Shown piece after piece: positions 20,445 to 59,133 of a DNA stretch of 59,821 nucleotides. The stretch is taken from positions 1-59,821 of the IMG/VR virus record IMGVR_UViG_3300045996_001015. One strand, given 5' to 3'. The position numbers were made by a program, and so were the translations under genes. Numbering within the stretch: the stretch's first letter is position 1; each line of letters starts with the position of its first letter. The stretch comes from a virus. The notes beneath the pieces are model-generated. The model did not search any database and was not told the DNA's origin. It was given only the letters and a program-made list of their open reading frames with translations.

Positions 20445-20738
20445 ATGAACACCACAACTACCGACGAACGAGATATGCTGTTCCCTCTTTCTCAAGTCAG
20501 AAAGGAGTTCAGCGAACGCTTTGGGCTCAACAACATGCCCAGCGAAGCGACATTGCTGACCTATAGAAGCGGCAAGCTAATCGGGCCGCGTAAGATCAGG
20601 GTGAAGATGAGGACGGGCAGAACTACATTCCCGTTAGGCGCAATCGGCATCAGCTACAACATGTTTCAAGAGTTCGGCGCAGAACTACAGAAAGTCTACG
20701 AAGAAGATGATCGCATTGCCGAACTAAACCAAGGATAA
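20445..20738 (+). CDS. Small putative DNA-binding protein (97 aa)
   Basis: Helical protein with a basic centre (LIGPRKIRVKMRTGRTTFPLG) reminiscent of a small winged-helix regulator, though no family is certain. It has its own leaderless-type promoter facing away from the late operon, a position suited to a regulator. Its 3' end overlaps the convergent serine recombinase gene by 15 bp. Confidence 0.5.
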   Translation: MNTTTTDERDMLFPLSQVRKEFSERFGLNNMPSEATLLTYRSGKLIGPRKIRVKMRTGRTTFPLGAIGISYNMFQEFGAELQKVYEEDDRIAELNQG

Positions 20739-21623
20739 ACCGTTTCCAGGTAGGTTTTGTCTTCTGGAAAGTACCTTATCCTCATACTCTTTGACCATCC
20801 TGGCGAAGCGTGGTGCAATCGGCAAATGAAATTCTGGCCGATCATTGTAGAAGTGTTTCAATGAATTCTGGTGAAATGATTGATGCGCGTAACGTCGGGC
20901 ACTGGCTCGATTATCAGGCCACAACCGCGGCGAGAACGCCGACCTTTTGTATTCAATCCCTTTGAGTGAGTGGTAGAACTGATCGGTCATGTCCGCTAGC
21001 CGGTGCATCGCGTATTTGTTGGTCGATGCTTGACGCAGGAAATACAAATACACCTCAAACTCTTGTGGATCTTTTACGAAAATTGATTGATCGCCAGATT
21101 TGCGAACCTTGAGCCCAGGTATCGCTAGGAAATTCTTGCCGAATGGAATGTGTGCCAAGTGCTGCCGATGATACTCGAACACCTCGCGCATCCGCTCCGA
21201 CTTGATTGCGCTCTCTAGCTCCGCTGCCATCACGAGCGTATGAGCCATCGCACGACCAACGGCAGAATTCAGATTGACCGGACAATTCACGAAGTGGCAC
21301 TTGATGCCACGATTCTCGAAGTTCGGCATCGTGTTGCAGTAATCACGCATGTTGCGGAACGAACGATCGAACCGCAAGAAAATGATGTGATCGCCGCGAC
21401 TAACGATGGAATTGTCTGCAAGCTTGCGACCGTTTTCGCGCTTGAACAATTGGCCGGTGTACGCGCTCTCGCCTTCATCCCGTAGCACGATTCCGCGAGT
21501 GATTCCATGTTGGGCAAGGTTCTGATCGAACCAACGCCAGCCCGATTCCTCTTGGATGCTCAGTGAGTGGCCATCGACTTGGTCGAGCGATGAAACGCGA
21601 ATGTAGAGGTGAGCGATGTTCAT
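20724..21623 (-). CDS. Serine recombinase (resolvase/invertase family, 299 aa)
   Basis: The N-terminal catalytic domain shows YIRVSS with the nucleophile Ser11 (or Ser12), QEESG, FLRFDRSFRN with catalytic arginines, and ELESAIKSERMRE leading into the long helix. The C-terminal part is not the large zinc-bearing domain of large serine integrases. It is the second recombinase of this phage besides the tyrosine integrase. It starts in a 4-bp ATGA overlap with the upstream gene. Resolution, inversion or an alternative integration role are all possible; no crossover site was found. Confidence 0.8.
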   Translation of the reverse strand: MNIAHLYIRVSSLDQVDGHSLSIQEESGWRWFDQNLAQHGITRGIVLRDEGESAYTGQLFKRENGRKLADNSIVSRGDHIIFLRFDRSFRNMRDYCNTMPNFENRGIKCHFVNCPVNLNSAVGRAMAHTLVMAAELESAIKSERMREVFEYHRQHLAHIPFGKNFLAIPGLKVRKSGDQSIFVKDPQEFEVYLYFLRQASTNKYAMHRLADMTDQFYHSLKGIEYKRSAFSPRLWPDNRASARRYAHQSFHQNSLKHFYNDRPEFHLPIAPRFARMVKEYEDKVLSRRQNLPGNGLSLV

Positions 21624-23364: not shown

Positions 23365-23520
23365 CGTTTCACCTGCTGGGGTTATTTCTCAAACCGTGTG
23401 ATCGCTTCCAAAATGAATTTCACTTCGTCGAGGGAGAAAATGCGCAGGCACTTACGCGACCTGTTTACGAGCCTTTGTCTCCCTGAGTTAGCCAACGTGT
23501 TACCACATCGACACATATCA

Positions 23521-23583
23521 CTAGGACTCGAACCTAGCTCCCGTCTTGCCACAAACTCGGCCAGCGATCCGGAATCAAACCGG
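23521..23583 (-). other. Two tRNA T-arm-like hairpins (degenerate tRNA remnants?)
   Basis: Minus-strand hairpins CTAGG-TTCGAGT-CCTAG (23537-23521) and CCGG-TTTGATT-CCGG (23583-23569) have the 7-nt loop of a T-arm. I could not build matching acceptor, D and anticodon arms around either, so I do not call a tRNA. They lie in the 300-bp gap upstream of the 23364 gene. Confidence 0.35.
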
Positions 23584-23666
23584 CATTAACGCAATGTGTT
23601 CAGCGACCCTGATTATAAGACTCTCGGTTCTGTTGTCAATGCGTCACCAGCATTATTCCAATTCTC

Positions 23667-23702: not shown

Positions 23703-23894
23703 ATGACACTCACCGAGCAAATTCGAGCAGCACTCAATGCGCGACCAGAGTCGTTCCGTGCAATCGCATCACAAATCGATATTCACGTCTCGCAACTCAC
23801 TCGGTTTGCAAAGAAGGAACGCGGCCTGTCTCTCGATGATCTCGACCGTCTAACTAAGTTCCTCGGGCTCTCTCTCAAGTCCGACAAAAGCTAA
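23703..23894 (+). CDS. Small XRE/Cro-type helix-turn-helix protein (63 aa)
   Basis: Residues about 18-52 (FRAIASQIDIHVSQLTRFAK then LSLDDLDRLTKFLGL) form a compact lambda-repressor-like HTH fold, close in length to Cro. An upstream TTG at 23694 was rejected because the -10 box overlaps it. It is followed by more than 700 bp without genes and then the operator-overlapped promoter at 24.65 kb, a plausible target. Confidence 0.7.
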   Translation: MTLTEQIRAALNARPESFRAIASQIDIHVSQLTRFAKKERGLSLDDLDRLTKFLGLSLKSDKS

Positions 23895-24634
23895 AAACGC
23901 AACGTCCGATCATACCAGCGACTTCGTGATCGTTTGTTAAAACGCAAGCCAGAGCGTCGGATTCTCCTAAAACCATCGGAATCGGCAACTATTCGATAAT
24001 CTCGAAGTGTTCGATTCGTCTATAGGACCAACGTTAATCGACCCCCACTGCCATTCACGCGCCAGGATTTCACGAGCGATACGAATCACGACGATGAGGG
24101 CGAACATCACTAGCGACAACGTGGTAAGATAGGGATTCTGTGAGTGGTGAACTGGACACTTGGTAATGCGTTCAGTTTACATTCAAACAGGTGTTCGTCA
24201 GTCCGGCAAGACGAGAGCGAATCACAACATCAATCATATCAACGGCTTGCGTCTGGTATCAAATGGAAGGGGCGGGGGAACCCCAGCGATTCGCCTACAT
24301 TAGTTACGTTCCCCTCGCAGGATTTTTCACTCAAAACTTTCAGGGTCATTGCTACTCCCCTGTCGTCGTAGATGAGCATCGATAACATGCCGTGATTTAC
24401 GAGGTTTTGGCTGATGGCATTAGGTATTAGAAGTATTGAATAGTAATCTTCCTGCTCGCGGGCAAAGAATTTAAGAAACTGCCGACCATTAACTCATTTA
24501 AGAATTAAGGAATACGCCCAGGGAAGTTCAGCTTTCTCATGCTGGTGAAGCTGGGTAAGAGCAGTCTCTACGTCGAGCGTGATTAGAATTCGGGGAAGGT
24601 CGCCACGCTGAGATACGACCTTGTTGTGACACGG
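23895..24634. other. Long intergenic region without a gene
   Basis: About 740 bp with stops in all frames over useful lengths; the short plus-strand ORFs here lack ribosome-binding sites and codon character. No tRNA was recognised. The segment may hold regulatory RNA or decayed genes ahead of the rightward operon. Confidence 0.5.
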
Positions 24635-24678
24635 GAAATATATTCCCTTGCTTTCATCGAGTCAAGCGAATATATTTC
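24635..24678 (+). promoter_or_regulatory. Promoter of the rightward operon with overlapping inverted-repeat operator
   Basis: TTGCTT (24648-24653), a 17-nt spacer and TATATT (24671-24676) form a good promoter with +1 near 24683. The arms GAAATATATTCCCTTG (24635-24650) and CAAGCGAATATATTTC (24663-24678) are inverted repeats with 15 of 16 matches and a 12-bp centre, so each end covers a promoter element. This is a likely repressor site. Confidence 0.65.
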
Positions 24679-24681
24679 TTA

Positions 24682-24770
24682 CGCACCGGCGAAACAATTT
24701 ATTCTTTTGACGACCTACCCATAGGGGACTATCGCATCTTCGCCGGTGTGTTACCCCTTATGGGTTTTTT
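24682..24770 (+). ncRNA. Leader RNA with interleaved stems and intrinsic terminator (attenuator-like)
   Basis: Stem A pairs 24682-24693 with 24739-24750 (12 bp, core CACCGGCGAA/TTCGCCGGTG). Stem B pairs 24717-24727 with 24754-24765 (11 bp, one bulge, ACCCATAGGGG/CCCCTTATGGGT) and runs into six T residues. The order A1-B1-A2-B2 means the stems either form a pseudoknot or exclude each other as antiterminator and terminator. Between A1 and A2, ATAG-GGGA-CTAT (24721-24732) can fold as a small hairpin with a GGGA loop. The RNA should begin at the first bases of stem A. Confidence 0.6.
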
Positions 24771-24785
24771 CTTTGGGGTGTGTGT

Positions 24786-24992
24786 ATGGGACGGGCATCT
24801 GGCCGTAAGAGACGCGATCGCAAGGGCCGTCTAGCAAACTGCAAAGCGAAATGTCGGTCTTGTGGCTTGATTCAGGATCGAGAGCGAAACGACTTCTACA
24901 GGGCGTCTTCTCCACGTTGCGTGGCATGTGGCGGTGCGATTGAGCGGCTTTGCGAGCCGAAGAAAATCTTTAGCAAACGCTCGCCTAGATAG
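24786..24992 (+). CDS. Small basic zinc-ribbon protein (68 aa)
   Basis: Arg/Lys-rich N-terminus followed by CRSCG...RCVACGG, a C-x2-C...C-x2-C ribbon, plus additional Cys residues. GGGG precedes the ATG at 24786; a GTG two codons upstream is the alternative. It is the first gene after the attenuator-like leader, so it could be the gene most directly controlled by it. A nucleic-acid-binding role is inferred. Confidence 0.6.
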   Translation: MGRASGRKRRDRKGRLANCKAKCRSCGLIQDRERNDFYRASSPRCVACGGAIERLCEPKKIFSKRSPR

Positions 24993-25007
24993 GCCTTCTC
25001 CCAATCT

Positions 25008-25026
25008 CAAGATTTTGCCTTTGAGG
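25008..25026 (+). repeat. Relative of the 19-bp repeat
   Basis: TCAAGATTTTGCCTTTGAG, in the intergenic region before groES, matches the 5077 repeat with few changes. TTGAGG at its end could be a -35 box, but the following -10 (TAATCT, 16 nt on) is weak. Confidence 0.4.
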
Positions 25027-25136
25027 TCATTTCACGGCCTGCTAATCTGCCTCTCGATATGTAGATCCCTGTGCTGTCCCGCTGGGTTTTCCTGGCGGGC
25101 AGCCTCTTATTCCTTCACCCCGAAAAGGAACCTTCT

Positions 25137-25433
25137 ATGTCCGTGAATTCGCTTAACCCGATTGGCAATAACATTCTCGTCTTGCCTGATACCCCAGAAC
25201 AGAAATCTAAGGGCGGAATCGTTCTTCCCGACGTTGCCCAAGACAAAACCAATACCGGCGTCGTTGTAGGCGTTGGCAGCGGTACGATGCTCAAGAATGG
25301 GACGCTAATCCCAATGACTGTGAAGATGCAGGATCGCGTGGCGTTCCCGCGTTACGGCCATCATGAGATAGAGATTGATGGCGTCATGCACCTTGTCATG
25401 CCGGAAACGGAAGTGATGGGGGTGATTTCGTGA
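25137..25433 (+). CDS. groES: Co-chaperonin GroES
   Basis: 98 aa with GroES signatures: NPIGNNILVLPD at the N-terminus, the mobile-loop region PEQKSKGGIVLPD, GVVVGVGSG, DRVAFPRYGHHEIEIDG and the C-terminal MPETEVMGVIS. It would form the heptameric lid of the host GroEL and assist folding of virion proteins, as T4 gp31 does. AAAGGA lies 7 nt before the ATG. Its place at the head of the ejection-protein operon rather than beside the capsid gene is unusual. Confidence 0.92.
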   Translation: MSVNSLNPIGNNILVLPDTPEQKSKGGIVLPDVAQDKTNTGVVVGVGSGTMLKNGTLIPMTVKMQDRVAFPRYGHHEIEIDGVMHLVMPETEVMGVIS

Positions 25434-25723
25434 CCACCTCAATCGACTGCATCACGCCATACATGGGCGCTCACGTATTCGATACACTCAACGGCGAGTA
25501 CGTTCAGTGGGGCAACGATCCTGAGTTACTAAGAAAAATCCACGAACTTAAAGGAAAACACGACTCGATCTTTGCGATTCCTCGCGAGTTCGACGCTGAG
25601 GTCGTGAATGTTTCGCGTCAGCCTCCAAATCATCAAGTATGGCCTGCCGTCGATATCATCGGAACAGACAACCCTTATTTCCGGCCTTGGTTCCTCTCCG
25701 ACTACATCGGGGGTGAAGAATGA
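25430..25723 (+). CDS. Hypothetical protein (97 aa)
   Basis: GTG start overlapping the groES stop (GTGA). Acidic, with IPREFDAEVVNVSRQPPNHQVWP. No domain recognised; translationally coupled to groES and to the next small gene. Confidence 0.6.
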   Translation: MTTSIDCITPYMGAHVFDTLNGEYVQWGNDPELLRKIHELKGKHDSIFAIPREFDAEVVNVSRQPPNHQVWPAVDIIGTDNPYFRPWFLSDYIGGEE

Positions 25724-25896
25724 GCCAAGAAATCAACTGGTACGCCACTCCTGAATTACGTTGGCGTGATGCCAATAAAACAGGACCTGGTCCATTTCTA
25801 CAGCCTGGGTATCGTATCGCGGGCATACTGCAACAAAAATGGGTTAGCGACGATGGAGCCGAGGAATGGCGAGAAGTTCCTGTCGTCGGTCGTTAG
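25720..25896 (+). CDS. Hypothetical small protein (58 aa)
   Basis: Reads MSQEINWYATPELRWRD at the N-terminus and ends WREVPVVGR. The ATG overlaps the preceding stop (ATGA), supporting translation. Function unknown. Confidence 0.6.
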   Translation: MSQEINWYATPELRWRDANKTGPGPFLQPGYRIAGILQQKWVSDDGAEEWREVPVVGR

Positions 25897-25910
25897 CCAT
25901 TTTCCACTTC

Positions 25911-25927
25911 TAAGATTTTGACTTTTC
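25911..25927 (+). repeat. Partial relative of the 19-bp repeat
   Basis: TAAGATTTTGACTTTTC shares its first ten bases with the repeats at 5077 and 13625 and lies in the intergenic space before the ejection-protein genes. Confidence 0.35.
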
Positions 25928-25994
25928 CCTTGCCCCGCGACTCTCTATGTTGCGGGCAGGAAAACGTCTCTCTTTACCTAGTGGTGGAATCTTT

Positions 25995-27158
25995 ATGGCA
26001 TTTCCAATCCCAGATTTGCGACAAGATGATGCTGATCTCATGGCCGCGTTTGCTGGCGTGAATCGGCTCAATTCAAACAACCTCAACAATGCTCGCCAGA
26101 ACGACAATCAGCAAATGTTGTCGATGTCGCAGCTTTTACGCGCGATGAACGGCCAATATGCTTTGCCAGACTTCATGCGTGACCCAACGGGCCAAGGGTT
26201 TCAGCGGTACGCGGCGTTGAACGATTACACATTCGATCAAACGTCGGATCGCAATAAGCAGGATCTGGATAACCAGATCAGAGCACTTCAAGCCCAGACA
26301 CAGGCTCAGGCAATTCTCGGTCGCGAAGGATATGCGAACCAATCTGCTTTGAACCGCGAAGGCTACGATCAGCAAACAGGAATGCAACAAGATCGTTACA
26401 CGGGCGATCAAGCGTTGCTTCGCGATCGTTATCAAGGCGACCTCGGATTGCAAGATGCGCGATACGAAGACGAACTCACACGACTAGGAACTCAACTTGC
26501 CGGTGGTCAAAACTTACAACGCGATCGCGGGGCAATCGACTTGGCGATGCAAGACAATCGCTACGCTGGCGAACAGGGTTTGCTGCGTGATCGCGGCACA
26601 ATCGATCAATCCCTACTCCGTGACAAATACACGGGAGAGGGGTCGTTGTTAAACACTCGACTTGGTGGTGCTTCGTCAATTCTCGGCGCATTGTTCGGAG
26701 GAGGCGGGGGCGGATCAAGCGGAAGTATCTCGACCGATTATGGAGCTGGCGTGAATTTTGGTGGCGGCGGGTCATCGGGTGGAAGTGCTGCTAGTTCGGC
26801 CAATCCACCTAAATATCAACCACCTCAATTTTCCGGTGGCGCGTCCGGTGGAATGGAGTTCGGTGACGCATTGCCGCGAACATCAACGCCGAATTACTCG
26901 CAACAAGTTAGTTCGTCGCAGTATTTGCCACCAGTCGATCCGTTCAATTTCAATCCAAAGGCCAACGATAAAGCGAATCCGATTTTCGGTGACGCAAAGC
27001 CGATCTTTCAGCCAAGAGAGGCTCCGGAATCTTTGCATGAAACTCCGAACATGGACTTTCAGCAGCCGAGGATTTCAACCGCGTTTAATCACAGCTTCCC
27101 GCAAAGGAAGCCGATGCAACCAAGGCCACGGCAATTTCCAGTCGGAGGGGTTCGATAA
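25995..27158 (+). CDS. Putative ejection (internal virion) protein A (387 aa)
   Basis: The ATG at 25995 has GGA 7 nt upstream. Residues about 75-215 contain repeated helical units built on Asp-Arg-Tyr (for example QDRYTGDQALLRDRYQGD), then SSILGALFGG and a Gly/Ser-rich, disordered C-terminal half. Its composition and operon position suggest a protein packaged in the capsid and released with DNA. The LL/IL-x-A-LFGG element recurs in the next three genes. Confidence 0.5.
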   Translation: MAFPIPDLRQDDADLMAAFAGVNRLNSNNLNNARQNDNQQMLSMSQLLRAMNGQYALPDFMRDPTGQGFQRYAALNDYTFDQTSDRNKQDLDNQIRALQAQTQAQAILGREGYANQSALNREGYDQQTGMQQDRYTGDQALLRDRYQGDLGLQDARYEDELTRLGTQLAGGQNLQRDRGAIDLAMQDNRYAGEQGLLRDRGTIDQSLLRDKYTGEGSLLNTRLGGASSILGALFGGGGGGSSGSISTDYGAGVNFGGGGSSGGSAASSANPPKYQPPQFSGGASGGMEFGDALPRTSTPNYSQQVSSSQYLPPVDPFNFNPKANDKANPIFGDAKPIFQPREAPESLHETPNMDFQQPRISTAFNHSFPQRKPMQPRPRQFPVGGVR

Positions 27159-27484
27159 TGGACATCAATTCTGGCGTGCGCGTTGAAAACACCACCGCTC
27201 CAAAACAGCTCACTTCGGCTTACGCCAAGTTTGGCCAGCGAGGCACACCGATTCAAAAGCAGTTGTATGGTCAATTTGCTGGGCCGATGCAAACGAATGA
27301 TATGCGGCAAATGGCTCAAGGGAATGCGAATTACAACCTTGGCGCACAGACGGCTCGCGCGAACTCCGGCTTGCAATGGGGCAATATGGGCCAACAGCAG
27401 TACATGCAGAATGTGAATCACCAGAACGCACAACGCAACTTCGGTACGACGTTGCTTGAAGCGATCCTTGGAGGTCAATACTAA
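27158..27484 (+). CDS. Putative ejection protein B (108 aa)
   Basis: Starts in a TAATG overlap. The C-terminal 45 residues (Gln/Asn-rich helix, then TTLLEAILGGQY) align by eye with the C-terminus of the next protein, indicating a shared module. Function inferred from context. Confidence 0.5.
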   Translation: MDINSGVRVENTTAPKQLTSAYAKFGQRGTPIQKQLYGQFAGPMQTNDMRQMAQGNANYNLGAQTARANSGLQWGNMGQQQYMQNVNHQNAQRNFGTTLLEAILGGQY

Positions 27485-28200
27485 TGCGAAAAGCACCTGG
27501 AACACGCACGACAACACTTGCTGGCGGTCAACAGTACGCCCAGCCGCGCGTGCCACAACCAAAGGGGCCATCCCCTGCACCATACACGTTACCGCCAACA
27601 TGGAACGGTGAATCATCGTTCGGAACTTTCCAAAACACGGCACAGACTCCGTCACCGATGCCCGCCCCGACAACGGCGTACAGCCAAGCCCCTGCGATGA
27701 ACGTTGGCCTTGCACCACTCCTCACGAACAACGGGTTTAAATCGCCGTCCCTTCGCGCGAACACCCCAAGCGGCGAAGTTAAAAACCAAGCGCAAACGAA
27801 TGTTCAATCAAGCATCACTCCAACGAATGTTTTTGATCAAGGATTAACAAACGCTGCAAGGAATCAGGGTGTGGCGCAGGCACTTGCGGCCGGAAATCCT
27901 TATTCCGCACAAAAGGCCGTCACCCGTCCGGGGTTTTCGCGTGGAGCCGGAACAGATCGACTTGCCGCACCAATCATTGCGCAAGGACAAGCGAATGCCG
28001 CTCAGGCTGCGTCAATGATTCCGTACAGCGATCAAATGGCGAACATGAATTTCAATCTTCGCGGTCAGCAGACGCGCGATGCGGAGTCTCAGGGACTGGC
28101 TCAGCTCGGCAACAACATGACGAACTTTAATCGATCGAACACCTTGAATAATCAGCGATCGGCAACATCGTTGCTGCAAGCACTCTTGGGAGGGTTTTAA
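27484..28200 (+). CDS. Putative ejection protein C (238 aa)
   Basis: Pro/Ala/Gln-rich, disordered N-terminal two thirds, then a helical C-terminus ending ATSLLQALLGGF that matches the end of the preceding protein. It starts in a TAATG overlap and has 2 nt before the next gene. The low-complexity soluble character fits a virion-internal protein. Confidence 0.5.
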   Translation: MRKAPGTRTTTLAGGQQYAQPRVPQPKGPSPAPYTLPPTWNGESSFGTFQNTAQTPSPMPAPTTAYSQAPAMNVGLAPLLTNNGFKSPSLRANTPSGEVKNQAQTNVQSSITPTNVFDQGLTNAARNQGVAQALAAGNPYSAQKAVTRPGFSRGAGTDRLAAPIIAQGQANAAQAASMIPYSDQMANMNFNLRGQQTRDAESQGLAQLGNNMTNFNRSNTLNNQRSATSLLQALLGGF

Positions 28201-28202
28201 TC

Positions 28203-29675
28203 ATGGCAGTCGGTATCTCGGTCTTAGATGAAATGGCAAGCCAAGGTTTGCTCGACCCGGAACAGATCAACGTGCTACGAGCCAAGAAACAGGATCTCGA
28301 AGCGCAAGATGCGATCCGTAGTGGCATTCCGTGGTGGAAAGCCAAGGGCGGTCAAACGACTTGGTACAGCGGGAATAAACCTGAAACGTCTAACGATCAG
28401 TTTATCAAAGAAACTGGCGGGCCATCCTACGAGCAGACGATGGCCGATGAACGTAATCGCGGACTCGGCCCAAATAAGAACACGCAAGCAAGCCGTGACG
28501 ATTATGCTCAATGGCAGAAGTCACAGGAACCGGGCGCACCGATTGAGCACGTTATCAACAAACTTAGCGGAATGTCGCCCGATCAAGTTTCTCTTTACCA
28601 AACGCAGCAAAGCCAAATCAGAAAGAACAACCTGAGTGGTGCAAAAGTCGCCTCGGACAAGTCCGCTGCCGATTACGCTGCAACCCCCGAAGGGACGATA
28701 AACAACGCCAAAATGATCATGCGTCGTTTGGGAATTCCGGCACAACAGGCAATGGCCATCGCAACCGCGAATGGGAATCCTGGTATCGATCCCGCTGGAA
28801 TGAACGCCGCTGCTGTCATGCCGAACTTCGCGATGGGAAATGCGAACAACAATGCACGACTTGGTATCGCGAACGTCAACGCCGACGTGGCGAAAGCGGG
28901 TCAGGCAAATCAATTGGCGGTGCAAGGGCTCGCCAACGAAGGAAATATCGCTGGAATCAACGCGCAGGGCCAGAACGCGATGGGAGTTCAGGATCAGCGA
29001 AACAAGGCTTCAATCCTGCAAGCGATGATTGCTCAAGGGTTGATTCCGAACGATATGGGCGGCGGGCAAGTCGCTCCACCACCAAATCCAATGGGCGCAA
29101 AAATCCCACCTGCTCTCGGCCCAAAGCAAGGCGCAGGGCCGTGGTGGAATCAAACAGCTCCGCAAGGTGGTGCTCCGGGTTTCACACGATTGCCACCTTC
29201 TCCGCAACAGCAAATCATGCTCGATCAAGCGAAGCAGCAAAGCGAACTTGGCGGACTGCAAATTCAGAATGAGCGGAATAAACAAAATCCGTCGTTCGGA
29301 ATCGACCAGCAGGCTGCGCAGCGAGTCGCACAACTGAAAGCACAAGAGAACGACCCTGCCTTTGTGTTCTCCGAAGCGAATGCGGAGCCAATTCGCGCGG
29401 CTTTAGTTCGATGGAACAATACCGGCGAACCATTGCCTGTCTCGATCGAGAGCGGGCTACGATCACTCTACAATCGCGATATTTACGATAGCGATAACAA
29501 GCATTTGGGCAACTTGTTTGGTCTTGTCGGTGCTGGCGGATACACCGAAGGGAATGATGCGCAGATTTTTGCAGACTATCTTGAAACACATTACGGCGTT
29601 CCGCAGCAAGTCGGCATCAAGCTCTATAACGAGAAGATTAAACAGAAGCCAACCGTTAGCACTGGAACAACCTAA
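28203..29675 (+). CDS. Putative ejection protein D (490 aa)
   Basis: Helical Ala/Asn/Gln-rich protein. Residues about 205-280 contain the same module as its neighbours, ending KASILQAMIAQGL. An early segment (about 45-60) has two Trp pairs, and the C-terminal 100 residues look folded. Likely part of the DNA-ejection machinery by operon position. Confidence 0.5.
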   Translation: MAVGISVLDEMASQGLLDPEQINVLRAKKQDLEAQDAIRSGIPWWKAKGGQTTWYSGNKPETSNDQFIKETGGPSYEQTMADERNRGLGPNKNTQASRDDYAQWQKSQEPGAPIEHVINKLSGMSPDQVSLYQTQQSQIRKNNLSGAKVASDKSAADYAATPEGTINNAKMIMRRLGIPAQQAMAIATANGNPGIDPAGMNAAAVMPNFAMGNANNNARLGIANVNADVAKAGQANQLAVQGLANEGNIAGINAQGQNAMGVQDQRNKASILQAMIAQGLIPNDMGGGQVAPPPNPMGAKIPPALGPKQGAGPWWNQTAPQGGAPGFTRLPPSPQQQIMLDQAKQQSELGGLQIQNERNKQNPSFGIDQQAAQRVAQLKAQENDPAFVFSEANAEPIRAALVRWNNTGEPLPVSIESGLRSLYNRDIYDSDNKHLGNLFGLVGAGGYTEGNDAQIFADYLETHYGVPQQVGIKLYNEKIKQKPTVSTGTT

Positions 29676-32600
29676 TGGCTTACGAGTACGGCGTACCAGG
29701 TATTTTTAAGTCGAACCGTCCCGATGCGCCGCAAGAGGATGAAGTCTATTCGTGGCTCAAAGGCGCGGGGCTCGGTGCGATCGGTTATCTCGGTAACATT
29801 ATCGACACTCCCGGCTCATTCGTGCGCGGACTTGCTGCCGGTGAGCCAGGTCGCGCGTTTACCGGCTTACTGAATTTCGGCGATCGTGTCAGCGGGAAGG
29901 AATTAGCCGGACTCGACGACAATCCCGATTCTTACCTTGATGACGCTGGCGGAATCGCAACCGAAATTCTGCTCGATCCACTGACGTACCTTACTCTCGG
30001 CGCGTCGGCACTTGTCGGCAAATCGGGTCCGATTGCCAAGGCTGCTGGGTTAATGCCAAAAGCCGTGCGCAGTGGAACCGAACTTGTCAAAGGTGCGGCT
30101 GAACTCGGCACGAAAACGACTCTGCGTGAACTCGAAAAGCAAGCCCCTGAGAATCTCGCAAAGATACTTACTGCCGCCGAAGGACAAGCAAAGCCAGGAT
30201 TGCTCAAACGTGCTGTAACGAAAGTCACCGGCCACGAATTCCAACCGAACGATCTTGTTCAGAGAATTAACGACGGACTTGCCGCTGCTCCCGGCGCGGG
30301 TGGCATCGTTGATGAACCATTACGAGCTGGCGTGGCGAGATTGCAAATCCCAGGTACAGAGATCGGAATGAATCTCGGCGATTCGCTTGCCCCAAAGCTC
30401 GATCAGTTCGGCGATACATTCCGCTACGGCAATTGGCTCGGTGCGTTGCCGGAGTCGGTCAATCCACTCGTACAAGCGGCGACAGGGCCAACAGGTTACA
30501 CGCCTGACCCCACACGGCTCTACGATTTCAATCCGATTCGCACGGCAGCTCCGTATTTTCAGAAATCATCGTGGGGATCAAAGACAGCATTAGGTCAGCT
30601 TGTCGGTCAAGAAGCAACGCAGAATGTCGATGCACTCGAAACGTCGATGCGCGGAGACGTTTTTCCGGTTTACGAGCAATGGAAGCAAGTGCCAGGGAAT
30701 GACACACCGCAAATGATTCAGTCCGTTCAAGAATCGCTAGAACAGGGCGCAGTCGGTGCCGCGCCACAGTCGTTTATCGATCCCTATCGTCAACTCATGC
30801 AGGACTTGCCGGTTAAGCTTGAAACAGATCGCGGCATTCCGCTGAACGAACTCACCGATCTCGGATACATGCAGCGACAGCAATTACCGCTTCCAGGTGT
30901 TGAGGTGAATCCGCGTAACTCAGCCGGTCGATCCCGCGTGAATGACCCGTCTCACGATAGCATGATCGGGCGCGAAGAGTTCTTACGCAATCAGCCAACG
31001 AGCATTCTTTCTCGAATGTCCATCGATCCGGAAATTGTGCAAAGCACACTTAAGCCGGACGAAGTTCGTGATTTAATGCTAGGCAAATACGGCTACAGCG
31101 GGTTTGATCAATCACTTTACGATTCGCTGAAACAGGAAGTTAGTGACCTTGAAGGACAAATTGCAAAGTCCGGCTCGCTTCCGCACGATCAAGTCGATTC
31201 TCTAATCGAAGCACTAACAAAGAAGCAGGGTGAGTTCGGTGCGCAGGCAAAGGAATTGGCTAATGCTGGAAAATTGCAAGACTACATGCAGAACAGCGTG
31301 GGTGATAGGTATATCATACATGGCGGCGGGTTTGGCCTATTCGATTCTAATCCAATCGAACTACTTGACTCGCGGCTATCACGGACGGCCAATGCGGTTG
31401 GCGAAGCCGATGCACTGTTCGACGCAATTCCGCAACAGATGTTCCACGGCCCAGCCGGTGCGGACGAACGACTCATTCCGATGGAAAAGGCTCTCGATCA
31501 ACTCGGATTCGCCGTTGACGGGAAAGTGACCGATGGCGCGATCAATCAGATTGCAAAGCGGATCGGTAAAGCATTCGACCCGAAAGGCTTCTCAATTCCT
31601 GCCGATGTCGTCGAAGAATTGGCCCGTGTTCGTCAAGCATTCAAAGCACCGCAGGAAGTGAACGACTTCTGGAAAGCGATCGATAAAATTACAGCCGGAT
31701 TCAAAACATTCGCCCTCATGCGCCCAGCGTTCCACACGCGAAACCTTGTCAGCGGCCAAGTACAAAATGCGATGAACGGATTATTCAGTCCGTTCGGCAC
31801 TCAAGCCGCAAGCCGATTGATGAAAGGCGAAGAAGTTCCGGGACTGGCGAAGTTCCTCGGTCTCAAAATGACCGATTCCGAAGCATCCCGCGAAATCTCG
31901 AAGCTCGCATTTGTTCACGATGTCATTCCGGGTGGTGCAAGCCAGCTTGCTGACATGCCAGGAACAGTCGGCAAAACGATTCTCGAATCAATTCCAGGCG
32001 AAATTCCGGTTGGTGTCTCTTTAACCACAAACACAGCAAAGGAGATGGCGAGATCGGCGATAGAAACGGCCAAGCACCCAATCGATTCGCTCAAGCAGCT
32101 CGGAACATGGTTCAAAGACAAATACAAAGCGGGCGAACTCAATCCATTGAAATCGCGCGGCGTGATCGGTGATGAAAGCCAATTCGTCGGCAGTGTGGCC
32201 CAAGAGCAAGCCAGCCGTGCGATCGAAGGTTACAACCGGCTCGGCGCATTCATCGAAGGAATTCGCAAAGGCATTGATCCCGCCGAAGCTGCAAAGCGAG
32301 TCAAAAATATTCAGTACGACTATCGCAATTTGACTGATTGGGAAAAAAGTGTCCCTCGCCGAGGGATGCCGTTCTATTCGTTCCAGAAAAATGCTTTACC
32401 ACAAGTCGTGTCTGAGTTGGCCCACAATCCAGGTGGCCCCTACGGCCAACTGTTACGCGGAATCAACGAATTGCAGGGCGAAGGTCAAATCCTGCCCGAT
32501 CACTTAAAGAATACATTGGCGATTCCCTACGGCACGAACGACGAAGGCGATCCGAGATACATTACGGGGCTCGGCCTCATGCCAGAATCGAGCTACGGGC

Positions 32601-33124
32601 TGTTGGGTGGCTTGCTAGGCGGCGACGGGCTTGGCAGTCAACTTACCGGGATGCTGAATCCCATGATCAAAGGCCCGCTAGAAGCAATGACCGGACGCTC
32701 CTTCTTTCAGGATCGAGAACTGATTGACCAAGATCCTGTGATGGGGCGAATCTTCTCAAACATCTTTGGAGGCGAACCGCCTAACACACGCACGGCTGAT
32801 CAATTGTTAATGAACGCAATCCCAACCCCACTGACAATCGCGAAACAACTTACCGACACTCGCAAGGGCGTTGGCGCGAAAGCCACGAACTTGCTGACAG
32901 GCATAAAAACCACGGACGTTCCTGACAAGGTTCAAGAGGCTCTTGGCCGTCAACAGCTTCAAGAGTTGTTGCGCACAATGGGAGGCCATAAATACGAGCA
33001 GTTCGTCATGCCGAAAGATGAACTTGCGAAACTACCACCTGATCAGCAGGAGAAAGCTAGAGTGATTCAGGCTCTTCTAAAAGAGTTGTCGGAGCGGGCG
33101 AAGAAACGGGCAAAGGCGGGATAA
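29675..33124 (+). CDS. Large ejection/polyvalent-type protein (1149 aa)
   Basis: Long, mostly helical protein. Residues about 25-125 are Gly/Ala-rich with membrane-active character (LGAIGYLGNIID, DPLTYLTLGASALVG). About 680-1000 resemble the LPD38-type domain of phage polyvalent proteins (FALMRPAFHTRNLVSGQVQNA, then DYRNLTDWEKSVPRRGMPFY). Such proteins are ejected into the host with the genome. It starts in a TAATG overlap and is the last gene of the rightward operon, overlapping the convergent gene at 33266 by 68 bp. Confidence 0.6.
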   Translation: MAYEYGVPGIFKSNRPDAPQEDEVYSWLKGAGLGAIGYLGNIIDTPGSFVRGLAAGEPGRAFTGLLNFGDRVSGKELAGLDDNPDSYLDDAGGIATEILLDPLTYLTLGASALVGKSGPIAKAAGLMPKAVRSGTELVKGAAELGTKTTLRELEKQAPENLAKILTAAEGQAKPGLLKRAVTKVTGHEFQPNDLVQRINDGLAAAPGAGGIVDEPLRAGVARLQIPGTEIGMNLGDSLAPKLDQFGDTFRYGNWLGALPESVNPLVQAATGPTGYTPDPTRLYDFNPIRTAAPYFQKSSWGSKTALGQLVGQEATQNVDALETSMRGDVFPVYEQWKQVPGNDTPQMIQSVQESLEQGAVGAAPQSFIDPYRQLMQDLPVKLETDRGIPLNELTDLGYMQRQQLPLPGVEVNPRNSAGRSRVNDPSHDSMIGREEFLRNQPTSILSRMSIDPEIVQSTLKPDEVRDLMLGKYGYSGFDQSLYDSLKQEVSDLEGQIAKSGSLPHDQVDSLIEALTKKQGEFGAQAKELANAGKLQDYMQNSVGDRYIIHGGGFGLFDSNPIELLDSRLSRTANAVGEADALFDAIPQQMFHGPAGADERLIPMEKALDQLGFAVDGKVTDGAINQIAKRIGKAFDPKGFSIPADVVEELARVRQAFKAPQEVNDFWKAIDKITAGFKTFALMRPAFHTRNLVSGQVQNAMNGLFSPFGTQAASRLMKGEEVPGLAKFLGLKMTDSEASREISKLAFVHDVIPGGASQLADMPGTVGKTILESIPGEIPVGVSLTTNTAKEMARSAIETAKHPIDSLKQLGTWFKDKYKAGELNPLKSRGVIGDESQFVGSVAQEQASRAIEGYNRLGAFIEGIRKGIDPAEAAKRVKNIQYDYRNLTDWEKSVPRRGMPFYSFQKNALPQVVSELAHNPGGPYGQLLRGINELQGEGQILPDHLKNTLAIPYGTNDEGDPRYITGLGLMPESSYGLLGGLLGGDGLGSQLTGMLNPMIKGPLEAMTGRSFFQDRELIDQDPVMGRIFSNIFGGEPPNTRTADQLLMNAIPTPLTIAKQLTDTRKGVGAKATNLLTGIKTTDVPDKVQEALGRQQLQELLRTMGGHKYEQFVMPKDELAKLPPDQQEKARVIQALLKELSERAKKRAKAG

Positions 33125-36526: not shown

Positions 36527-36604
36527 AACACTGGATTGGATTTGAACCAACGACCCTCCGCTGCGGTACCGAGCGGTGCTCTCGCCAGGCTGAGCTACCA
36601 GTGC
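36527..36604 (-). tRNA. tRNA-like gene with a 9-nt anticodon loop (isotype undetermined)
   Basis: The acceptor arms GCACTGG and CCAGTGT pair over 7 bp (end pair G-U). The D-arm GCTC-AGCCTGGCGA-GAGC and T-arm GTTGG-TTCAAAT-CCAAT are canonical. The anticodon stem CCGCT/AGCGG (36572-36576 with 36558-36562) encloses CGGTACCGC, nine bases instead of seven, with no clear U33. CCA is not encoded. It may be a non-decoding tRNA, a decoy, or a decayed gene. Confidence 0.55.
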
Positions 36605-48838: not shown

Positions 48839-49798
48839 TCATGCGAGTTTCAAAACGCCCTGCTCAAGTCGCTTAATCCCGAGTTTGCAGTAATCTTCAT
48901 TCAGTTCAGTCGCAATACACTCGCAACCGTTCTTTCGAGCAACGAGCGCCGTAGTCATTGCACCACCGAACGGATCAAGTACCACGCCGCCGGCGGGACA
49001 TCCGGCCATAATGCACGGTTCAATCAGGTCCATTGGGAATGTGGCAAAGTGGGCTCCCTTGTACGGCTTTGTGGTCACAGTCCAAACACTGCGCTTATTT
49101 CGCTTTTCTTTACCACCTTTGCGAGTTAACAAACCGGCTCCGCGACTTGGTTTTCCTGGAAAACCCCGATCAGGTCTGCCAGCGTCATAGCCCTCGCGAG
49201 TCAGGCGTTTATCTTTTTTGGTAGATGCTGCTACAGGTTCGAGAATGGCGGATTGATTGAAGTAATACCGTTTTGACTTTGACAACAGGAAAATGTATTC
49301 GTGTGATCTCGTACAGCGGTCCCTAACGCTCTCGCACATGCAGTTCGGCTTATCCCAAATGATGTCGTTTCGCAGATACCATCCGTCGTTACGCAATGCA
49401 AAAGCGACCATCCAAGGAATTCCGATCAGGTCTTTCGACTTCAATCCAGGAATCGCTACATCGTTCGGGCGAAGTCCATGCCGGCGGGCGGGTTGCTTTG
49501 GATCCACACCACCAGATTGACCTTTGCCGTTTTGATAACTGTCACCCAGGTTCAGCCACAACGTTCCATCCTTGGCAAGCACTCTGCGAACTCCTCTGAA
49601 AACTTCCACAATTCTTTTCACGTAATCGTCAGGTGTTCTCTCTCGACCGATCTGACCTGGGTGACAGTAATCTCTGAGGCCGTAGTAGGGGGGGCTCGTA
49701 ACGCAACAGTTGACGCTCTCCGCCGGTAACGATTCCATCACGGCGACACAATCGCCGTTGTAAATTGTCACTCCGTCGCGTTGGTAAAATGCGTCCAT
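48839..49798 (-). CDS. DNA methyltransferase, N4-cytosine/N6-adenine class (319 aa)
   Basis: The catalytic motif TSPPYYG (34-40) precedes the SAM-binding motif VVLDPFGG (272-279), the permuted order of beta-type amino-methyltransferases; SPPY is typical of N4-cytosine enzymes. The central part carries the target-recognition region. AGGA lies upstream of the ATG at 49798; an in-frame ATG at 49852, 4 nt after the csrA-like stop, is an alternative start. No cognate restriction gene was seen, so it is likely an orphan enzyme protecting phage DNA. Confidence 0.85.
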   Translation of the reverse strand: MDAFYQRDGVTIYNGDCVAVMESLPAESVNCCVTSPPYYGLRDYCHPGQIGRERTPDDYVKRIVEVFRGVRRVLAKDGTLWLNLGDSYQNGKGQSGGVDPKQPARRHGLRPNDVAIPGLKSKDLIGIPWMVAFALRNDGWYLRNDIIWDKPNCMCESVRDRCTRSHEYIFLLSKSKRYYFNQSAILEPVAASTKKDKRLTREGYDAGRPDRGFPGKPSRGAGLLTRKGGKEKRNKRSVWTVTTKPYKGAHFATFPMDLIEPCIMAGCPAGGVVLDPFGGAMTTALVARKNGCECIATELNEDYCKLGIKRLEQGVLKLA

Positions 49799-57280: not shown

Positions 57281-57988
57281 ATGGTTTCGGTCATTGCGTT
57301 TGTTCTGATGTCATGTCAGGTAGTAGTTCCTGCTAATGTTTTTGCTAGAGAGCTAAAAAAAGCAGAAGATCATCGCGCCGCGTACATTTCTGAGTGCGAA
57401 TCCGAGGCAGCAGAATTACGTGCGAAGGGAAAGCTGCTCGCAGTCGCAAAGGTTGGGACAAACGTTCACCTTAAAGATGCAAAAACCAACAAGCCTCATT
57501 TGGTGTACGTTAAGTCGCAGGAAATCAAAGACGCCACGCTTAAAGCGATGGGTGAACGGGTGGAATATCTTGAAGGCGAGGTAAAGGCGGCCAAATCATT
57601 GGATTTGCTGCCACAGCCCACCAAGGAGCATGAGTCGCTTTATTCGGTGTTTTATTTTTCGGACAAAATCAAAGTAAAGCAGGTGTTCGACGGCGAAAAT
57701 GTGCTGATCACGTATAAATACAATAAACCGGACGGGGCAGTTGACGTTGTTGATTATGTATTAACTGGAGTCAACGTAGGGGCCTTTGCTGACGGAAAAG
57801 AAATGCAATACGCAATACCGCTTATGGTGGTTGGAAACTATTCTTACATCACAAAGGACGAAAACAGGCGGACGGTACATAAGTTGGTTCCTGCCACAAA
57901 ACGGGAGCTAGAGGTTTTGGCGGGAATTAAAAGTAAGGAAAGCGTAGTCGAGCATGAACTGACTAACAAAAAAGCCACTTCAAAATGA
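57281..57988 (+). CDS. Exported protein or lipoprotein in the lysogeny operon (235 aa)
   Basis: The N-terminus MVSVIAFVLMSCQVV is apolar, with a possible lipobox (LMSC, Cys12) or a cleavable signal. The mature part is charged, with a helical segment (about 25-50) and a beta-rich C-terminal half (YSVFYFSDKIKVKQVFDGEN). It lies between the regulator and the integrase, the place where several phages encode superinfection-exclusion lipoproteins. Function unproven. Confidence 0.55.
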   Translation: MVSVIAFVLMSCQVVVPANVFARELKKAEDHRAAYISECESEAAELRAKGKLLAVAKVGTNVHLKDAKTNKPHLVYVKSQEIKDATLKAMGERVEYLEGEVKAAKSLDLLPQPTKEHESLYSVFYFSDKIKVKQVFDGENVLITYKYNKPDGAVDVVDYVLTGVNVGAFADGKEMQYAIPLMVVGNYSYITKDENRRTVHKLVPATKRELEVLAGIKSKESVVEHELTNKKATSK

Positions 57989-59133
57989 TCCGCGTATTTG
58001 TCCGCAAAAAGCCTGACCGAGATTTCTACCAACTCTATTACGTCGATCCGTTCACCGGCAAAGATGTCACGCGGTCTGCTAATACCGACAACAAGGCGTT
58101 GGCCGAGCGTGAGGCACAGAACTGGGAAACCGAGCTGACAGAGCAGGGGATCGGTGGCGGCGAGGTCTCCTGGGACGTTTTCAGACTGCGATTCACCGAC
58201 GAGCATTTAGCCCACTTAGCCATCAATACGCTCAAAGCCTACGAATCGAGTCTCAATGCTTTTGAAAATGCAGTAGGAAAACCGAAGTCCCTTTCGCTCG
58301 TCAATCCGAGCCTCATGAGTAAGCTGCGAACGAAGCTGATTGCAAACGCCGGTTCGGTTGAAACGGCCAAGAAATACATGCGTCACATTCAGGGCGCGTT
58401 GTCCTGGGCCGAAACAATCGGACTGATTAAAAAGGCCCCGTCGTTTATCGGTGTTCCTGGTAGCGGCAAGATGAAGGGGAGGCCGGTCACGGATAAAGAA
58501 TTTCAGTCCATGATCGATAACGCGAACGTCGAGAAGCCGGGTGAGTTTGCGAAAACAACTGCCGTGGAAGTTGAAAAACGGATCTTCACAATGAAGTCGA
58601 TTTGGGAGTCCGGCCTGAGAGTCGGCGAGCTATCGCGCTGCCACTGGGATAGCGGGCCGATCCGGTTCGATTTAGACAGCGGCGCATACCCTCAAATGAT
58701 ATTCAGCGTTGGCAGCCACAAGTCACGCCGACAAGAAATTGTGCCGATGACACCAGAGTTCGCTGCGTTGCTTAGGAAGCGATTTCCCGAAGGCAGTCGC
58801 AAGGGAAGGGTGTTTGACCTCGCGCAGCCCGATCGCGTCATATCGGCCATAGGCGTGGCCGCCAAGATCATTGTGAACGAAGATGGCAAGTGCGCATCGG
58901 CTCATGACCTGAGACGCTCGTTTGCGACTCGCTGGAGTTATAAGGTTCGGCCAGTGATTTTGCAACGAATGATGCGACACAAAAGCATCACCACGACGCT
59001 CACTTACTACGTCATGCAAGAGGCCGATGATGTCGGTGCAGAAATCTGGCGCGTACCCCCATTTGTACCCCAAACGCCCGAAAATCCGAAAAGGAAATCA
59101 AAACTGACCCCCAAAAACATCGGGAAAAAATGA
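57985..59133 (+). CDS. int: Tyrosine-family site-specific integrase (382 aa)
   Basis: Core-binding region at about 70-150, then the catalytic residues Arg212 (SGLRVGEL), Lys246 (SHKSRRQ), His307 and Arg310 (HDLRRSF), His332 (RHKS) and Tyr341 or Tyr342 (LTYY). The N-terminal 60 residues probably bind the arm sites seen at 59053-59071 and 59247-59265. It starts in an ATGA overlap. The C-terminal ADDVGAEIWRVPP style recalls Planctomycetota integrases. It recombines attP at 59161-59219 with a host tRNA-Leu gene. Confidence 0.93.
   Translation: MIRVFVRKKPDRDFYQLYYVDPFTGKDVTRSANTDNKALAEREAQNWETELTEQGIGGGEVSWDVFRLRFTDEHLAHLAINTLKAYESSLNAFENAVGKPKSLSLVNPSLMSKLRTKLIANAGSVETAKKYMRHIQGALSWAETIGLIKKAPSFIGVPGSGKMKGRPVTDKEFQSMIDNANVEKPGEFAKTTAVEVEKRIFTMKSIWESGLRVGELSRCHWDSGPIRFDLDSGAYPQMIFSVGSHKSRRQEIVPMTPEFAALLRKRFPEGSRKGRVFDLAQPDRVISAIGVAAKIIVNEDGKCASAHDLRRSFATRWSYKVRPVILQRMMRHKSITTTLTYYVMQEADDVGAEIWRVPPFVPQTPENPKRKSKLTPKNIGKK

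Follow-up and report, generated by a model that had tools for sequence, protein, structure and literature searches.

Several described systems come close to the phage leader analyzed here. In the fluoride riboswitch, a pseudoknotted aptamer is stabilized by its ligand, and the sequence of the pseudoknot overlaps the base of the terminator (PMC11077080). The put element of HK022, an RNA of about 70 nt comprising two stem-loops, acts via the RNA polymerase on distant terminators (PMC9378689). At prokaryotic bidirectional promoters, one polymerase excludes the other, and spacings of 10, 18 or 23 bp between the two start sites are common (PMC12825309).

The locus under study belongs to an uncultured phage whose whole virus record is identical with the window, i.e., the entire stretch of DNA that was analyzed, with a length of 59,821 bases (59.8 kb). 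We propose that positions 24683-24774 serve as a conditional transcription terminator (a terminator/antiterminator leader) of a rightward phage operon, and we assign a probability of about 0.5 to this reading. Judged from its sequence and its modeled folds, the leader would work like an attenuator and is a candidate member of that class.

Genomic setting of the leader

A leftward gene block (2411-23364) precedes the leader and a rightward gene block (24786-33124) follows it, in a genome that carries a 127-nt direct repeat at both termini. The portal protein is P22-like with a score slightly under the Pfam cut-off, and the terminase match in the genome is weak. Three genes outside the rightward block are of relevance for the following considerations:

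20724-21623, minus strand: serine recombinase (resolvase-type), only 299 aa long, encoded close to the candidate major head gene and 3 kb from the palindrome described below
23703-23894: Cro/C1-like regulator of 63 aa, below the Pfam cut-off
57985-59133: tyrosine integrase

At a viral locus outside this genome, L005, recombinase-like matches lie in the same neighborhood as the candidate major head gene. The phage genome furthermore contains a tRNA-Val gene (anticodon tac; 36527-36604, minus strand) and an 18-nt inverted repeat (94%) with arms at 49534-49551 and 49655-49672 that are 103 nt apart.

The operon that the leader would control comprises the gene for a cysteine-rich 68-aa protein, groES, and the genes up to position 33124:

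24786-24992, plus strand: first gene, encoding a basic, zinc-ribbon-like 68-aa protein that has two CxxC pairs and whose N-terminus is rich in arginine
25137-25433, plus strand: second gene, GroES (co-chaperonin; phrog_3188, E 1.7e-20)
25430-33124, plus strand: further co-directional genes, encoding proteins of 97, 403, 108, 238, 490 and 1149 aa

The original prediction had placed the leader in front of GroES and an ejection-protein operon. GroES is indeed part of the operon, but as its second gene, the preceding gene for the four-cysteine protein having been left out; the ejection-protein label finds no support, as those large genes of 25430-33124 that were scanned match no Pfam or PHROG family. 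The 68-aa protein carries the sequence GRKRRDRKGR near its N-terminus and four cysteines, and it matches Zn_ribbon_8 with a Pfam score below the cut-off. Its predicted structure is poor (pLDDT 57, from a single sequence) and yielded no fold match in a search that was uninformative. Just before groES, a strong hairpin is present at 25073-25105 (plus strand; fold of 25066-25112, -23.6 kcal/mol) that has no clear T-run.

A palindrome with predicted divergent promoters

The DNA directly upstream of the leader contains the following elements:

24635-24678: pseudo-palindrome of 44 bp, possible operator
24637-24665, minus strand: leftward promoter, TTGACT-17-TATATT, by consensus match
24648-24676, plus strand: predicted rightward promoter, TTGCTT-17-TATATT, with an expected start near 24683

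The 16-bp inverted repeat that had been reported around the promoter is present, its arms (24635-24650 and 24663-24678) being matched at 15 of 16 positions across a 12-nt spacer. No other inverted repeat of this quality (15/16, spacer 3-30) exists in the genome, and four of 200 shuffles possess one. Most of its symmetry is accounted for by the -35 and -10 hexamers of two predicted divergent promoters, and the pattern TTG-N20-TATATTNC occurs in the genome only at the palindrome, once per strand (two such matches are found in none of 100 shuffles). The most fitting interpretation of this sequence is that of two overlapping promoters placed back to back; symmetric promoter elements on both strands are what a bidirectional promoter would display. 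Symmetry also extends to six of the seven arm positions that lie beyond the hexamers, so that the operator invoked in the original prediction is a possible but only putative feature.

The two promoters differ in quality. The leftward one agrees with the consensus at 10 of 12 positions and ranks second in the genome by a sigma70-type score, for which E. coli hexamer frequencies served as weights. The rightward promoter had been named in the original prediction, and its sequence is there, but it matches at only 8 of 12 positions, ranks 35 of 119,572 positions and falls under the cut-off of the promoter scan, so that it was not listed there; the stronger leftward promoter had been missed. The modest 8/12 match counts against the switch reading. 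The expected start site of the rightward promoter lies some 7 nt beyond its -10 element, inside stem A, so that 11-12 of the 13 stem A pairs would be transcribed; the start had previously been assigned to the first base of a 12-bp stem A.

All three top-ranking sigma70-type sites of the genome are found in this intergenic region and are directed leftward. The best one is a perfect 12/12 sigma70 promoter (TTGACA-16-TATAAT; 23612-23639, minus strand) directed into a region (23480-23605) with two tRNA-T-arm-like sequences, GCCGGTTTGATTCCGG and GCTAGGTTCGAGTCCTAG, at which ARAGORN calls no tRNA. The third-ranking promoter-like site (TTGATA-18-TATGAT; 24233-24262, minus strand) is located within some 1.3 kb of sequence that is devoid of a leftward ORF of 60 aa and may harbor small genes or RNAs. 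Control of groES by CIRCE/HrcA was considered and rejected, as no TTAGCACTC-N9-GAGTGCTAA site was detected with up to 3 mismatches.

Anatomy of the interleaved stems

The leader itself is composed of the following elements, all on the plus strand:

24681-24693: A1, 5' strand of stem A and candidate antiterminator, pairs with 24739-24751
24717-24727: B1, 5' strand of terminator stem B, pairs with 24755-24765
24733-24750: inner hairpin CGCAUC/GGUGUG of 6 bp in the loop of stem B (local fold of -4.9 alone)
24739-24751: A2, 3' strand of stem A, within the loop of stem B
24755-24774: B2 and the T-run TTTTTTCTTT, predicted intrinsic terminator
24775-24785: weak GGGG ribosome-binding region GGGGTGTGTGT, directly 3' of the T-run

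Stem A consists of 13 pairs and stem B of 11, each including one G-U pair. Both sequence and tools bore out the strand order A1-B1-A2-B2 with a gap of just 3 nt between A2 and B2; the consecutive linkers measure 23, 11 and 3 nt, and the two stems have no stem base in common. The assignment of stem B, with TTTTTTCTTT behind its 11 pairs, as an intrinsic terminator holds at the sequence level, and the predicted hairpin is larger than stem B alone: in the best local fold, the 11 bp continue via an internal loop into the 6-bp inner hairpin (-25.1 kcal/mol). A loop of 27 nt, as in stem B, is on the long side for a terminator, a property that counts against the switch reading. As the 3' side of the inner hairpin lies within A2, this hairpin cannot coexist with stem A; hence, formation of stem A would be at the expense of the full terminator hairpin, despite the absence of a stem base common to both stems.

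The terminator (24717-24774) sits between the predicted promoter and the first gene, the arrangement expected of an attenuator at the sequence level, and 12 nt separate the end of the T-run from the ATG at position 24786. In one long fold (the MFE structure of 24635-24786), the GGGGTGTGTGT region is able to pair with part of A1.

In the genome, a stem B that has at least 9 bp, is followed by a T-run and is threaded by a stem A of at least 10 bp occurs at the leader only; one of 200 genome shuffles contains such a combination. No such arrangement was found in 1.61 Mb of other phage DNA, where the nearest case is a 9/9 one (locus L051). The leader folds with an MFE of -28.3, compared with -18.3 +/- 3.1 in shuffled sequences, and six out of 1000 shuffles are as low. 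However, its raw stability is not exceptional, since 479 of 5194 genome windows fold as stably. All these chance estimates are weakened by the fact that the leader was picked after the sequence had been seen.

Two predicted competing folds and a model for the proposed switch

For the predicted transcript (24683-24774), the best fold reaches -28.3 kcal/mol with stem A and -27.3 kcal/mol with stem B, a near tie, and the two states together dominate the ensemble: among the 156 folds within 3 kcal/mol, 152 contain either A or B and four contain neither. As modeled, the leader RNA is thus sharply two-state with near-equal stabilities, in support of the terminator/antiterminator logic of the original prediction. 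Nested folding predicts an equilibrium of about 75% A and 25% B, and when a growing chain is folded with 10 or 14 nt hidden in the polymerase, stem A is complete before B2 becomes exposed. Because modeling favors A, in a model that does not include pseudoknots, read-through would be the default; being derived from equilibrium folds, this prediction may fail.

These data lend themselves to the following regulatory model. RNA polymerase would start near 24683 from the palindromic divergent promoter. As long as A1:A2 holds, A2 would be withheld from the inner terminator hairpin, the formation of the terminator hairpin would be late, and transcription would read through into the operon. If A1 were instead occupied, delayed or remodeled, B1 would pair with B2, the inner hairpin would form in the loop, and the polymerase would presumably halt in the T-run after about 90 nt. 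In this model, the A and B folds would exclude each other in the cell. Judged by its position and composition only, the basic four-cysteine 68-aa protein is a candidate for a feedback function.

Several established mechanisms were tried and rejected. Ribosome-driven attenuation would involve a leader peptide, but no ORF that starts within the transcript spans A1-B1. Antisense-RNA attenuation was dismissed as none of the better-scoring promoter sites 3' of the leader points leftward. A known riboswitch or RNA family is not apparent: Rfam yielded no match, neither at the gathering threshold nor with E relaxed to 5, which also counts against the switch reading.

Alternative readings

The locus might also be controlled in the manner of late genes governed by lambda Q, 21Q or AlpA, where a short terminated RNA would be the default product, a phage antiterminator loaded at the promoter would permit passage, and stem A would be secondary. 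The layout of a promoter, an intrinsic terminator about 90 nt further on and an operon is that of 21Q and AlpA (PMC6606751, PMC9371919), and the -10-like sequence AACAAT at about +10 to +16, a weak motif, could mark a pause. Nevertheless, neither a Q-like nor an AlpA-like protein was found among the ORFs scanned, which cover the small ORFs in part; the -35/-10 spacer contains no clear 6-bp direct repeat, as judged by eye; and the balance of A and B would be left unexplained. We regard this possibility as rather doubtful.

A further possibility follows from the geometry of the two stems. The original prediction considered their simultaneous pairing to be strained, a view that finds no support: the linkers of 23 and 11 nt look sufficient, and rough energies leave room for a pseudoknot that contains both stems. 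Formation of both at once looks feasible, with the 3-nt side as the place where the two helices could stack. As A and B have no stem sequence in common, such a pseudoknot may form, and in that event A need not prevent termination but would only slow or stabilize it, a point against the switch reading. The product could then be a stable, terminator-ended small RNA, a pseudoknot of about 90 nt acting in trans or as a decoy, with the operon being fed by leak-through or by another promoter. In favor of this idea, the stack energies of A (-23.9 kcal/mol) and B (-22.1 kcal/mol), calculated after removal of an assumed duplex initiation term of 4.1, sum to a value that far exceeds either state alone; by a rough estimate, the pseudoknot would be competitive even with a penalty of 10-15 kcal/mol, and linker lengths of 23, 11 and 3 nt would seem to permit it. 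Yet no second good rightward promoter was found between the leader and groES, and we consider the small-RNA explanation improbable.

Stem B might alternatively be a plain terminator that stops read-through from upstream, with stem A arising by chance or tuning efficiency only. Interleaved stems that are not backed by a T-run constitute weaker evidence for a switch: of 60 shuffled genomes, 5 contain them with 11/11 bp or more and 25 contain them somewhere with 10/10 bp or more, the latter frequency being in line with a chance origin of stem A. On the other hand, the best promoter of the operon itself would be severed from its genes, and stem A is formed by 13 precisely placed pairs, so that this simple explanation appears decidedly unlikely. 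A role of the repeats as DNA, either as protein-binding dyads or as a recombination site for the serine recombinase (20724-21623), would accord with the symmetry of the 44-bp palindrome at 6/7 bases beyond the promoter hexamers, with the Cro/C1-like regulator gene (23703-23894) and with the resolvase-type recombinase 3 kb away, but it is very improbable, as no extra copies of the arm motif exist above chance, the T-run and the interleaving would be unexplained, and the palindrome is not CIRCE.

Relatives and conservation

The phage has no close sequenced kin. A DNA search of annotated phages with positions 24301-25500 as the query gave no match, and neither did scans of viral contigs with the 68-aa protein, GroES, the 1149-aa protein, the terminase and the candidate major head protein. 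Alignment-guided terminase scans uncovered relatives at 30-42% identity. Among 20 of these, good homologues of the 1149-aa protein are present in five, and a weak partial match exists in a sixth (the contig of L005); the homologues in related phage contigs show 27-37% identity. Neither GroES nor the 68-aa protein was found in any of the 20 terminase relatives searched, and no comparable leader was detected in those regions of the relatives that were scanned. A scan for the stem-A pattern matched three viral contigs, none of which has the A/B arrangement according to a structure scan. Genome-contig scans (integrase, terminase alignment) revealed no prophage relative beyond a terminase of 21% identity on one 7-kb contig.

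The 1149-aa gene is encoded on the strand opposite to that of the terminase and portal genes in the phage studied here; in the related contigs (L127-L132), it shares their strand, so far as can be judged from the loci. The leader thus seems to be tied to a rearranged gene block. That no leader-carrying relative, and hence no covariation of stems A and B, emerged from protein, DNA or pattern searches counts against the switch reading.

Comparison with known systems

At present, the leader is a well-formed, single-copy candidate for a conditional terminator. If this reading is true, a terminator would be controllable by a stem that merely threads its loop, and the scope of searches for attenuators would widen accordingly; the locus would also represent a compact case in which a phage employs RNA-level control for GroES and a large operon. 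One elaboration of the conditional-terminator reading is speculative and, in its full form, rather unlikely: the threading antiterminator stem would act as a kinetic switch of the pseudoknot type, instead of one with a shared strand, would be coupled to the palindromic two-way promoter, and would perhaps be read by the arginine-rich four-cysteine protein.

The palindrome resembles prokaryotic bidirectional promoters (PMC12825309) in that pseudo-symmetric DNA carries promoter elements in both directions; it differs from them by a start-to-start distance of about 53 bp and by -35 elements that are placed back to back. As with the HK022 put RNA (PMC9378689), a structured RNA that may oppose termination would be made soon after a phage promoter, but the leader of this phage has a stem that is interleaved directly with the terminator. 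The succession of promoter, short leader, intrinsic terminator and operon is shared with the promoter-proximal terminators of the Q and AlpA systems (PMC6606751, PMC9371919); in contrast to these, the phage leader possesses an extra competing stem, and no protein of this type or clear binding element was found. As in the fluoride riboswitch (PMC11077080), the structure that forms first would compete with an intrinsic terminator during transcription; unlike the riboswitch, the leader has neither an Rfam family match nor a known ligand. Like terminator/antiterminator leaders in general, it is predicted to offer two competing folds of near-equal energy, one of which is an intrinsic terminator, in front of a first gene. 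It deviates from them in that its stems interleave completely, with no stem sequence in common, that neither a leader peptide nor a known ligand is involved, and that the competition concerns the loop of the terminator and its inner hairpin rather than its base.
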